Assembly (NCBI RefSeq): GCF_024300625.1
Contig: NZ_CP101322.1
Coordinates: 2,245,992 to 2,309,991, forward strand
From: Halovivax gelatinilyticus
Lineage (GTDB): Archaea > Halobacteriota > Halobacteria > Halobacteriales > Natrialbaceae
Length of the DNA stretch: 64,000 bases
Direction of reading: 5' to 3'
The position numbers and the translations under genes are program-made. This document shows positions 6,347 to 9,284 of this stretch, piece after piece (the stretch's first letter is position 1; every line of letters starts with the position of its first letter). Under the pieces are notes generated by a model. The model was given only the letters and a program-made list of their open reading frames with translations, was not told the DNA's origin and ran no database searches.

Positions 6347-6483
6347 AGCCTTCGATAGTCGCGGCACGGACAAAAAAGCCCCGTTCCGTTCGGTTCGACG
6401 GACATCGTCTGAATGCGGACCGTTCGTGGGTCGCATTTGCCGTCTCCTCCTTGACAGTTCCAGGGCAAGGACGTAAGAGTCTA

Positions 6484-7629
6484 ATGGACAGGCTGAGTGA
6501 CTGGTTGATGATGGCCGTGTGGCCGACCCGCACGTTGCGGGTGGTGCTCTGTGGGATGTTGATCGGTGCGCTCGTGGTGGGCGTCGGTAGCGTCGGCCTC
6601 GTCGCGGGATTCACGGACGAACCATCGGGTCACGACTCGGCGGCGGCAGTTTCCGGTTCAGCCGCGGCGACGGCCGACGAACACGATTCGAACGAGACGG
6701 CCCACCTCGACGGGTTCGACCGCATCGTGACGACGTTCGACGTCGCCGAGAACGGAACGGCGAACGTCGTCGTCACCTACCGGTACGAACTCGACACCAA
6801 CGAGACGGACGAGGAGTGGGAGACGCTTCGCGAGGACATCGAAAACCGATCGACGGCGTACGCGGCCGGCGAACACGAGCGGTGGAACGCGACGCTTCAG
6901 GCGGCACGGAACGGGACGGAGCGAGAGATGTCGATCACCCCCGTCACGGTCGCCATCGGCGAAGTGACGACGCCCAGAACGTACGGGACGGTCACCTACA
7001 CTTTCTCCTGGTCCGGGTTCGCTTCGGTGGAGCCGAAGTGGATCGGGATCGGCGACGCGCTCTCGCAGTACACGCTCGACGAGGGGACGACGCTCTGGAT
7101 TCGGTGGCCGGAGGCCTACGAACTCCAGGAGATCTCACCGTCGCCCGACCACGATCGCGAGACGGGCGTCGGCTGGGACGGCGAGGAGACCGACTTCATC
7201 GACGGTGAACCGCGGGTCGAGGTTCTCGAACGCGGTGAACCCGTCGAGAACGAGAGCGATGACCCGGACGATCGCTCTCTCGTTCCGTTCGTGCTCGCCG
7301 GCCTGGTACTTCTCGGGGCGGCCGCCGCGATCGTGTGGTGGAGTCGTCGCGACGACCAGTCGGCGCCATCGAGCGAGCAGCCCACCCGATCGGCCCCGAC
7401 GACGCCACCGCCGGAATTGCTGAGCAACGAAGAGCGGGTGTTGACGCTGCTCGCCGACAACGGCGGGCGGATGAAACAGCAAACGATCGTCGCCGAACTC
7501 GGATGGACCGAGGCGAAGACGAGCCAGGTGGTCGGCGAGTTGCGAGAAGCGGGTGACGTCGAAGTGTTCCGACTCGGTCGCGAGAACGTGCTGGCCCTTC
7601 CGGAAGACGACTCCGCCGACAGCGGCTGA
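6484..7629 (+). CDS. Membrane-anchored winged-helix regulator with extracytoplasmic domain
   Basis: 381 residues: an N-terminal transmembrane helix (about 18-42), a large acidic beta-rich extracytoplasmic domain (about 45-255), a second transmembrane helix (near 265-285, ending in WWSRR), and a C-terminal winged-helix domain (about 315-375) with LSNEERVLTLL and the recognition-helix region TEAKTSQVVGELREAG. This is the architecture of haloarchaeal DUF7345/DUF7343-type proteins, thought to couple a surface signal to transcription; no target is known. The ATG at 6484 (MDRLSDW) is chosen over a TTG 11 codons upstream. Confidence 0.75.
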   Translation: MDRLSDWLMMAVWPTRTLRVVLCGMLIGALVVGVGSVGLVAGFTDEPSGHDSAAAVSGSAAATADEHDSNETAHLDGFDRIVTTFDVAENGTANVVVTYRYELDTNETDEEWETLREDIENRSTAYAAGEHERWNATLQAARNGTEREMSITPVTVAIGEVTTPRTYGTVTYTFSWSGFASVEPKWIGIGDALSQYTLDEGTTLWIRWPEAYELQEISPSPDHDRETGVGWDGEETDFIDGEPRVEVLERGEPVENESDDPDDRSLVPFVLAGLVLLGAAAAIVWWSRRDDQSAPSSEQPTRSAPTTPPPELLSNEERVLTLLADNGGRMKQQTIVAELGWTEAKTSQVVGELREAGDVEVFRLGRENVLALPEDDSADSG

Positions 7630-7689: not shown

Positions 7690-7697
7690 TTTATACC
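7690..7697 (+). promoter_or_regulatory. TATA box of the arginine-locus leader
   Basis: TTTATACC lies with its centre 27 bases before the ATG at 7721, the spacing of a leaderless haloarchaeal promoter. It would start a transcript through the short Arg-rich ORF toward argG. Confidence 0.4.
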
Positions 7698-7720
7698 CAC
7701 TGAGACTGTTATCCCTTCCA

Positions 7721-7804
7721 ATGATCGTCGGCTCGTCGCTCGCGTTCTCGCCGTTCGCGAGCGGTGCGACCCGACGACGGCGAGCGTTCCGACCGGCCCT
7801 CTAG
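7721..7804 (+). CDS. Candidate Arg-rich leader peptide upstream of argG (27 aa)
   Basis: ATG at 7721 opens a 27-codon frame ending TAG at 7802. The last third reads ATRRRRAFRPAL: four consecutive Arg codons (7772-7783) and a fifth soon after. A TATA box sits at -27. A hairpin (7837-7857) follows 33 bases after the stop, and argG starts 160 bases downstream. Leader peptides rich in the end-product amino acid are classical attenuation devices in bacteria; no archaeal precedent is claimed here. Out-of-frame GC-rich DNA often yields Arg runs, so this is a hypothesis. Confidence 0.3.
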   Translation: MIVGSSLAFSPFASGATRRRRAFRPAL

Positions 7805-7836
7805 GGCCACACTTACTACATCTTTGTTACCCGGCT

Positions 7837-7857
7837 GATGCTATTTTCCCTAGCATC
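7837..7857 (+). other. Hairpin in the argG leader
   Basis: GATGCTA-TTTTCCC-TAGCATC is a perfect 7-bp stem with a 7-base loop, extendable by a U-G pair. It lies between the Arg-rich leader ORF and argG and could be a pausing, processing or attenuator element. No T-run follows it. Confidence 0.35.
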
Positions 7858-7902
7858 GCTTGCTCACACACGGTAGAACCTCCGTTAGTGTACGCTCTAA
7901 AC

Positions 7903-7920
7903 TTTATTTTCTAAAATAAA
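7903..7920 (+). promoter_or_regulatory. Perfect 18-bp palindrome upstream of argG
   Basis: TTTATTTTCTAAAATAAA has two 8-base arms around CT and contains a single C and no G in a GC-rich genome. It lies just upstream of the probable argG TATA (CATTTATC, 7928-7935; ATG at 7965). The position suits a dimeric regulator of the arginine genes, or it could itself be a TATA/UAS element. No regulator is identified. Confidence 0.45.
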
Positions 7921-7964
7921 ATCACTGCATTTATCCCTGTTCGGCCGGTTCGTTCGGATACGAC

Positions 7965-9284
7965 ATGACACGCGTTGCACTCGCGTTCTCGGGCGGGCTG
8001 GACACGACGGTCTGTGTTCCGCTGCTCGAAGAAGAGTACGGATACGAAGAGGTTCTCGGCGTCACCGTCGACGTCGGGCAGCCCGAATCGGAGTTCGAAG
8101 AGGCGGCAGAGACGGCCGAGGCGCTCGGGCTAGATCACGTCGTCGTCGACGCCAAAGACGAGTTCGCCGAGCTGTGTTTCGACGGCGTTCGCGCGAACGC
8201 GATCTACCAGGGCTACCCGCTCGGGACGGCGCTCGCGCGGCCGGTGATCGCGTCGGCCATCCTCGCCGTCGCCGAGGAACACGACTGTTCGGGAATCGCT
8301 CACGGCTGTACCGGAAAGGGAAACGATCAGCTTCGATTCGAGGCGATCTGGCGCGACTCGGACCTCGAAGTCATCGCGCCCGTGCGCGAACTCGGGCTCA
8401 CGCGCGAGTGGGAACAGGAGTACGCGGCAAAGAAAGGCCTTCCAGTCGAAGGCGGCAACGAGGGTGACTGGTCGGTCGACACTAACCTCTGGAGTCGCTC
8501 CGTCGAGGGGGCCGAACTCGAGGATCCGAGCTACGTCCCCGGCGAGGAGATCTACGAGTGGACCGACGCGCCGACGGGGGAGACGGCCGAAATCGAGATC
8601 GCGTTCGAATCCGGCTACCCGGTCGCCGTCGACGTTCTCGGGAGCGACGCTCCCGCGAGCCAATCAGAAGCGTTCGCTTCTGATGACGGCGAGACGATGG
8701 AGCCCGTCGCGCTGATCACTCACCTGAACGAACTCGCCGGACGCTACGGCGTCGGGCGGACGGATTCGATGGAAGATCGCATGCTGGGACTGAAAGTGCG
8801 CGAGAACTACGAGCACCCGGCCGCGACGACGCTCCTGTCGGCCCACGAGGCGCTGGAGGGGCTCGTCCTCACGCAGGAAGAGCGCCAGTTCAAAGCCCAA
8901 ATCGACGCGCAGTGGGCCGAGAAAGCCTACGAGGGGTTGATCGACGCGCCGCTCGTTTCCGCCCTCGAGGGGTTCATCGACGAGACGCAAACACGCGTCA
9001 CCGGCACCGTCACGATCCGGTTCGAGGGCGGGCAGGCGCGCGCCGTCGGTCGCGACAGCGAGTACGCGGCCTACTCGGCGGCCCACGCCTCCTTCGACAC
9101 CGAATCGGTCGGGAAGATCGCCCAGGAGGACGCGACGGGCGTCGCGAAGTACCACGGCTTCCAGCGCCGCCTGGCCAACGAGTCGCTCGCCGCCCTGGAC
9201 GACGCGTCCGAGGACGCACCCGAACTCGCCACTGACGGTGGCGAGAACGAGGGGCCATCGGACACGCTCACGAATCACTCCTGA
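7965..9284 (+). CDS. argG: Argininosuccinate synthase
   Basis: ATP-dependent condensation of citrulline and aspartate to argininosuccinate, the penultimate step of arginine synthesis. The N-type ATP pyrophosphatase P-loop AFSGGLDTTV is at residues 7-16. YEW-containing and GRYGVGR segments characteristic of ArgG follow. At 439 residues it is somewhat longer than usual (about 400), with an acidic, low-complexity C-terminal tail (from about 415). It is first in the argGH block; argH follows after two bases. A TATA-like CATTTATC lies about 33 bases upstream of the ATG. Confidence 0.95.
   Translation: MTRVALAFSGGLDTTVCVPLLEEEYGYEEVLGVTVDVGQPESEFEEAAETAEALGLDHVVVDAKDEFAELCFDGVRANAIYQGYPLGTALARPVIASAILAVAEEHDCSGIAHGCTGKGNDQLRFEAIWRDSDLEVIAPVRELGLTREWEQEYAAKKGLPVEGGNEGDWSVDTNLWSRSVEGAELEDPSYVPGEEIYEWTDAPTGETAEIEIAFESGYPVAVDVLGSDAPASQSEAFASDDGETMEPVALITHLNELAGRYGVGRTDSMEDRMLGLKVRENYEHPAATTLLSAHEALEGLVLTQEERQFKAQIDAQWAEKAYEGLIDAPLVSALEGFIDETQTRVTGTVTIRFEGGQARAVGRDSEYAAYSAAHASFDTESVGKIAQEDATGVAKYHGFQRRLANESLAALDDASEDAPELATDGGENEGPSDTLTNHS

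Follow-up and report, generated by a model that had tools for sequence, protein, structure and literature searches.

Arginine-codon leaders in front of argG point to a putative ribosome-mediated attenuator in haloarchaea, with sister leaders at pheS and ilvB

Introduction

In leader-peptide attenuation, known from bacteria as a textbook device, a ribosome must closely follow RNA polymerase, and the bacterial attenuators of this ribosome-mediated type include the trp, his, leu, thr, ilvGMEDA, and pheST leaders. The region in front of argG in the haloarchaeon Halovivax gelatinilyticus raises the question of whether an archaeon might use such a device. A preliminary description of this DNA had pointed to a leaderless-type promoter, a 27-codon open reading frame (ORF) with four consecutive Arg codons and a fifth nearby, and a hairpin after the stop, and had likened this arrangement to amino-acid attenuation. 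Here, we analyzed the window, by which we mean the whole stretch of 64,000 nucleotides from contig NZ_CP101322.1, together with argG loci from other archaea and with further amino acid genes.

Results

The region in front of argG

The promoter and the ORF, including all five Arg codons, were borne out by the sequence and are accompanied by several additional elements, listed here with their coordinates in the window:

7690..7695, + strand: P1, the TATA box of the leader (TTTATA), its first base 31 nt 5′ of the leader ATG
7721..7804, + strand: leader ORF of leaderless type, 27 codons, encoding MIVGSSLAFSPFASGATRRRRAFRPAL and ending in a stop, with counterparts 5′ of argG in relatives
7725..7777, + strand: H1, a stem-loop within the ORF, its 3′ arm extending into the first Arg codons (MFE and centroid fold; arm-swap test)
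7772..7783, + strand: four successive Arg codons, CGA CGA CGG CGA, a conserved cluster
7790-7792, + strand: fifth Arg codon of the leader, CGA
7795..7808, + strand: H2, a conserved GC hairpin at the stop TAG, GGCCC-TCTA-GGGCC
7809..7836, + strand: C/U-rich linker 3′ of H2, loosely similar within the family (by eye), longest T run three
7837..7857, + strand: H3, the hairpin of the preliminary description, GATGCTA-TTTTCCC-TAGCATC, 32 nt 3′ of the leader stop
7884..7899, no strand assigned: imperfect DNA dyad GTTAGtgtacGCTCTA, 5′ of P2, a possible operator (family alignment, by eye)
7903..7920, no strand assigned: AT-rich palindrome TTTATTTTCTAAAATAAA adjoining P2
7930..7935, + strand: P2, the argG-proximal TATA-like box
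7965..9284, + strand: argG, argininosuccinate synthase, ATG at 7965

The last of these is the first gene of argG-argH-argW-argX-argC-argB, in which the names argW and argX were assigned from their place in the arg cluster. The leader stop (TAG, 7802-7804) has its TA inside the H2 loop and its G in the H2 3′ arm. When the RNA from 7719 to 7862 was folded, the structure contained H1, H2, and H3, had a z-score of -2.86, and was better than 199 of 200 shuffles. Closer to argG, the dyad, the AT palindrome, and the TATA-like box (7882-7937) likely form a second promoter of argG, P2. The dyad upstream of P2, which has a family form of approximately GGTTAGCnnnnGCTCTACC as judged by eye from 116 aligned sequences of the family, is a possible regulator site. 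On the other side of the leader, the gene at 6451-7629 appears, by eye, to encode a membrane protein whose C-terminus resembles a winged helix and which could be a regulator; it had no NCBIfam match at E 1e-5, and several relatives have similar sequence 5′ of the leader.

Distribution of the leader

A DNA search recovered the leader element before argG in each of the four other congeneric genomes compared, and in a single genome from another genus. Across the family (Natrialbaceae), argG was located in 124 of 125 genomes, and the leader was accepted automatically, by a rule specifying a TATA box, an ATG, a short ORF, and at least three Arg, at 113 of 125 argG loci. Eleven of the 12 loci that failed this rule carry the leader when inspected by eye, with TATA variants or a frame that runs past the hairpin stop, and the remaining one is a second argG copy, so that the leader is present in all 124 argG-bearing genomes of the family.

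Outside the family, 24 genomes from 16 families of the same order were examined, and argG was present in 23 of them, from 15 families. The leader was present at 18 of these 23 loci (partly by eye) and absent from five, located in families f2, f9, and f11. The preliminary description had made its proposal depend, among other things, on conservation of the ORF and its Arg codons in relatives, and the proposal survived this check, both having been kept family-wide and in 12 of the 15 other argG-bearing families. A collection of named haloarchaea and metagenome-assembled genomes (MAGs) contributed 13 more argG loci, 12 with the leader (partly by eye): those of Halorubrum, Haloparvum, Haloferax, Halobaculum, a Natronomonas MAG, Halonotius, Haloarcula, Halogranum, and four further MAGs. 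By eye, none was seen at 12 non-haloarchaeal archaeal loci, and second, divergent argG copies without a leader were found at L139 (genome G023) and L177 (MAG QS_4_69_34). An expanded leader with more than one Arg cluster was observed by eye at L154, L157, L166, and L167, which represent family f5, Halorubrum, and Haloparvum.

For the analyses below we assembled 142 leaders, selected for Arg codons in frame, GGCC downstream, and a TATA-like box lying 18-38 nt 5′ of the start. Nine starts in this set were set by hand (G011, G071, G073, G084, G085, L144, L152, L159, and L160), and it excludes one false pick (G023b) and five leaderless loci, L161-L165, among which L164 was a false pick as well. 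Beyond the 11 family leaders and part of those in other families, the choices made by eye comprised the leader at L172 and the ATG of L166.

Reading frame and codon usage of the leader

The distance from TATA box to ATG was confined to 29-33 nt in the 142 leaders, with 81 of them at exactly 31; a box 18-38 nt upstream had been required for most of the set, the narrow range had not. Spacing of this kind fits a transcript that would begin at the AUG itself. In the 12 codons 5′ of H2, the leader frame contained 666 Arg codons, whereas the other two frames contained 258 and 279. Because starts had been chosen in part for in-frame Arg, the frame test was redone with the start set by TATA distance alone, and this Arg-blind choice gave 608 Arg in frame versus 228 and 255 across 128 usable loci of 148. 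Frame 0 was the sole best frame at 102 of these 128 loci and tied at 11, while another frame was best at 15. Although the leader ORF varies in length, it enters the Arg run in a conserved frame.

Synonymous codons were used unevenly, such that the leader Arg codons comprised 434 CGA, 210 CGG, 13 CGC, 4 CGT, and 5 AGG. CGA and CGG together thus made up 644 of 666 leader Arg codons (97%), versus 606 of 1406 (43%) in 29 long ORFs of the window, where usage was 37% CGC, 23% CGG, 20% CGA, and 13% CGT. Bacterial attenuators likewise use a subset of codons, and RNA folding may contribute to the CGA/CGG bias of the leaders.

These data bear on the idea that DNA or RNA structure alone is conserved here, as an operator or as the terminator of the upstream gene, with the ORF being incidental. 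The GC-rich palindromes are indeed conserved as sequence, and the ilvB region described below is strongly conserved at the nucleotide level, as such an idea would have it. Against it stand the frame-specific excess of Arg, which persisted under the Arg-blind choice of start, the mixing of CGA and CGG as synonyms, and the start spacing of 29-33 nt.

Hairpins within and after the leader

The hairpin that the preliminary description had singled out, H3, is present in the window, yet it varies from locus to locus; the conserved hairpin is H2, at the leader stop. As a regulatory hairpin, H3 was set aside, being clear in the closest relatives alone, with weak, variable hairpins at its position elsewhere (by eye). 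Using a fixed set of complementary arms, we identified H2 in 140 of 142 real 85-nt windows versus 5.3% of 2-nt-block shuffles, and in none of the 142 stretches of 85 nt that follow. The in-frame stop of the leader begins within H2 in 133 of 142 cases and outside it in nine. Moreover, the arms of H2 covary, with GGGCC/GGCCC, GGCCC/GGGCC, CGGGC/GCCCG, GACCCC/GGGGTC, and GGGGTC/GACCCC all represented. For H1, own arms were compared with swapped arms in 41 representatives and attained a mean rank of 0.31 (chance 0.5), being better than the median in 32 and falling in the best tenth in 11.

No U-run follows H2, and hence it is not an intrinsic terminator of the bacterial type, which combines a hairpin with such a run. 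Termination in archaea relies on signals unlike those of bacteria. Nor did a mutually exclusive antiterminator emerge from the one candidate pairing tested, that of the Arg run with the downstream element CGGTTCGTTC. Its z-scores were suggestive in some single-promoter families and modest overall (mean -0.70 over 47); own arms hardly beat swapped ones (mean rank 0.44), and for this reason the pairing was rejected as a classical switch and dropped as a general feature. In bacteria, T-box riboswitches act as amino-acid-responsive leaders of the same genes. Unlike these and other Rfam leaders, the argG leader had no match at gathering scores, the sole match in the window being one tRNA.

One promoter or two at argG

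A TATA-like box lies before argG at 124 of 142 loci and is absent from the other 18, at which no tested variant of the box occurred anywhere between H2 and the argG match. These single-promoter loci belong to genera g7 and g10 of the family and to families f3, f4, f6, f12, f13, f15, and f17. With no box between H2 and argG, the leader and argG are there most simply read as parts of one transcript, as an attenuator would need, while the presence of P2 at the 124 loci means that argG can probably be expressed without the leader.

The leader could instead exert translational control, in that the position of the ribosome on it would govern access to the argG start, or re-initiation there, on a full-length mRNA without any termination. 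Such control would sit well with the missing U-run after H2, and coupling could matter at the 18 single-promoter loci, where a rough check found hardly any Shine-Dalgarno-like motif before the argG match. The distance from H2 to the argG match is, however, 107-158 nt at 139 of 142 loci and 188-213 nt at three, which is far for re-initiation, and argG has its own promoter box at most loci. Overall, we consider translational control unlikely.

A further alternative is a stand-alone gene for a small Arg-rich protein that came to lie before argG by chance. It would account for the leader having its own promoter box and for the second promoter that argG has at most loci, and could find support in the N-terminal half of the leader, which is alike in many genera of the family (SVGT...TDGTV). 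This half coincides with H1, though, and differs in other genera and families (by eye), and the leader remains 5′ of argG in distant families and at single-promoter loci. Together with the cognate leaders at pheS and ilvB described below, these observations make a stand-alone gene highly improbable.

Leaders at pheS and ilvB

A start-site map of Haloferax volcanii (PMC4983044, Table 2) lists 16 upstream ORFs (uORFs) in long 5′UTRs, including one of 26 aa before pheS (pI 5.9, 2772 Da), where the table marks no further start, in agreement with a single transcript for uORF and gene, and pheS loci were therefore examined. We found that the pheS leader of Haloferax marisrubri has 26 aa, a pI of 5.9, and a mass of 2822 Da, such that the H. 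volcanii uORF, as tabulated, matches the Haloferax leader in length and pI. Leaders with a promoter-like box and terminal Phe codons (GFGFFFAR or similar) were present at 19 of 25 pheS loci and in four of seven named genomes (23 of 32), with a 24th emerging in the uniform signature test described below, and were not found at the pheS loci of several genera. Their Phe codons comprised 49 TTC and 16 TTT, giving little preference for rare codons. The leader stop lies within a GC hairpin in many genomes, and five of eight folded examples had a stem comparable to H1, formed by the codons following the AUG and those immediately 5′ of the Phe run.

Before ilvB, leaders ending in IIVGA, RIVGA, IVGA, or VLVGA were identified at 22 of 24 loci by a strict rule and at one more by eye (L342); the one locus without a leader was a match below the family cut-off. 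ATT accounted for 23 of 28 Ile codons and GTA for 14 of 28 Val codons in 13 of these leaders; both codons are rare in the genes of the window, where ATT makes up 10% of Ile and GTA 7% of Val codons. Codons and structure are confounded at ilvB, since the motif ATTGTAGGGG is also conserved as DNA, and some leaders have a single Ile-Val pair. H. gelatinilyticus itself carries both kinds of leader:

G000:C1 near 1587093, - strand: Phe leader L247, MTSDSRRRCIAYEPPRSTTGPGFFGAR, before pheS, its stop in a 7-bp GC hairpin (GCGCCCG-GTGA-CGGGCGC)
G000:C1 near 1050920, + strand: Ile/Val leader L347, MRETTPAHVGFAVTGAVATIIVGA, before ilvB and just downstream of a leuA-like gene (L453), its stop within GTAGGGG-CCTAGA-CCCCTAC

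To compare genes, a uniform signature rule was applied: a promoter-like box, 14-45 codons, and a stop lying within a hairpin of 5 bp or more. It was satisfied at 117 of 148 argG loci (26 of the 31 that failed it nevertheless carry the leader), 22 of 24 ilvB loci, and 13 of 32 pheS loci, versus 3 of 96 control loci: hisG 1 of 17, trpC 0 of 17, trpS 1 of 25, leuA 1 of 25, and trpE 0 of 12. His, Trp, and Leu leaders at these five control genes were accordingly discarded as candidates beyond the three loci. The test took in 25 of 30 trpS, 25 of 29 leuA-like, 12 of 30 trpE-like (the ones above the cut-off), 17 of 19 trpC, and all 17 hisG loci, as well as 17 of 20 plus 7 of 8 for ilvB and 25 of 26 plus 7 of 7 for pheS. 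Mainly weaker paralogues and fragments were dropped, apart from five trpS loci (L286, L288, L292, L295, and L298) that were dropped without such a reason. At the trpS locus of G042 (L277), a lone ORF resembling a leader, MRAAPATRRWRWHPPGADSVGGAVGAA, contains two Trp codons and has a hairpin at its stop; for H. volcanii, the table in PMC4983044 includes a 23-aa uORF before the gene for Trp-tRNA ligase.

When 1.6 Mb (43%) of the H. gelatinilyticus genome was scanned for the signature, 28 matches were retrieved, versus 58 in the reversed sequence. By hairpin score, the pheS leader came second among the 28 (tied with the third) and the ilvB leader fifth. Other matches also precede plausible genes, for example those near 996572, 1199445, and 2172058, and given these and the 58 reversed matches, the signature alone is no evidence, whereas position and cognate codons are.

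The occurrence of cognate codons at argG, pheS, and ilvB, compared with 3 of 96 control loci, argues further against conservation of structure alone, which we regard as very unlikely. The sister leaders also speak to nascent-peptide arrest, in which an Arg/Pro-rich C-terminus would stall the ribosome and the trigger would be free arginine or general stress instead of uncharged tRNA. C-terminal RPGL or RPGR is frequent in the family leaders, as would be expected of an arrest peptide, and yet the final residues vary (RPAL, RRAF, RGR, and RPL also occur) and the same architecture bears FFF or IIVG at other genes. The common denominator is for these reasons the combination of cognate codons and hairpin and not one peptide, and we ascribe little probability to arrest of this kind.

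Coincidence is made unlikely by the cognate codons of the pheS and ilvB leaders, and chance occurrence in GC-rich DNA is ruled out by the shuffle, control-gene, and Arg-blind frame tests. The arrangement noted in the preliminary description thus exceeds chance, given its conservation, its frame and codon usage, and the shuffle control of H2.

Discussion

The reading that we favor, at a probability of roughly 0.62, is that the argG leader is an arginine-sensing leader-peptide attenuator, ribosome-mediated and acting on a leaderless transcript. Clustered codons for the end product in a short ORF before the cognate gene, as well as conservation of that ORF and those codons in relatives, are what characterize leader-peptide attenuators, and both were found at argG. 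Comparison of sequences establishes the conserved anatomy, the frame, the codon bias, the stop in the hairpin, the loci with the P1 box alone, and the sisters at pheS and ilvB. The likeness to amino-acid attenuation that had been suggested at the outset thereby gains support from the conserved ORF, Arg codons, promoter spacing, and stop hairpin, and from the cognate leaders at the two other genes.

From this anatomy we infer a start of transcription at the leader in H. gelatinilyticus, its translation, stalling, a logic of ON and OFF states, and a termination step. RNA from P1 would start at or next to the leader AUG, allowing a ribosome to load at the leaderless 5′ end and to follow RNA polymerase. 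With ample charged Arg-tRNA, this ribosome would pass the CGA and CGG codons, reach the stop in H2, and leave, upon which H2 would close and, with the C/U-rich linker, halt or destabilize the transcript before argG, be it through pausing or termination or through the archaeal cleavage factor FttA. With scarce Arg-tRNA, the ribosome would be parked on the Arg codons just 5′ of H2, so that H2 (and H1) would stay open and transcription would proceed into the arg cluster. In H. gelatinilyticus, argG may in addition be expressed from a separate leaderless mRNA starting at P2, in which case the attenuated P1 transcript would add starvation-responsive expression. Pausing or factor-dependent termination is favored because no U-run follows H2. 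FttA is a known archaeal termination factor, and mutual exclusion of FttA and the ribosome has been offered as a hypothesis in a structural study of FttA (PMC11616081).

Relative to bacterial attenuators, the leaders share a short ORF with clustered cognate codons that lies directly 5′ of a gene for biosynthesis or for an aminoacyl-tRNA synthetase and precedes one or more hairpins. They differ in their leaderless start spacing, in having the stop within a conserved hairpin, and in that neither a U-run terminator nor an antiterminator was detected. In leaders of the TnaC and pyrBI type, the ribosome itself masks the termination signal. Similarly, a parked ribosome covering the signal would suffice at argG without an alternative RNA fold; unlike in TnaC and pyrBI, however, the signal would be the run of cognate codons plus H2, and the factor would presumably be FttA and not Rho. 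That the cognate codons abut the stop-holding hairpin suggests the simplest of switches, in which a parked ribosome opens the hairpin and a departed one closes it. We further think it fairly probable that amino-acid attenuators form a general class in haloarchaea, made up of leaderless leader peptides in which codons for Arg at argG, Phe at pheS, and Ile-Val at ilvB abut a stop-holding hairpin and in which the ribosome alone would decide, with no antiterminator, whether RNA polymerase, perhaps with FttA, goes on.

The leaders belong to the same class of feature as the H. volcanii uORFs in PMC4983044, where the pheS uORF is the one that corresponds to our Haloferax leader. In the sections of that paper drawn on here, the 16 uORFs are presented as small proteins and attenuation is not proposed; its table, which covers 5′UTRs of 150-250 nt from cells in complex medium and lists uORFs of low pI throughout, includes neither argG nor ilvB. 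Leader-peptide attenuation in Archaea was not found among the best matches in open-access titles and abstracts. A term search of the accessible text of a review of archaeal coupling (PMC8116511) did not return the word attenuation, and in the corresponding text of a study of translation in H. volcanii (PMC12482152) it appears in the reference list alone. As far as open-access titles and abstracts reach, the argG, pheS, and ilvB leaders would, if the attenuation reading is true, be the first amino-acid attenuators in Archaea.

The leaders bear on whether transcription-translation coupling in archaea is tight enough for attenuation, and the attenuation reading, if true, would mean that archaea employ functional coupling of this kind as a sensor. 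On this reading, at least one uORF of H. volcanii that was published without an interpretation, that of pheS, would be accounted for as well. The Arg leader and its Phe and Ile/Val counterparts would serve as natural reporters of coupling, leaderless initiation, and termination in tractable haloarchaea.
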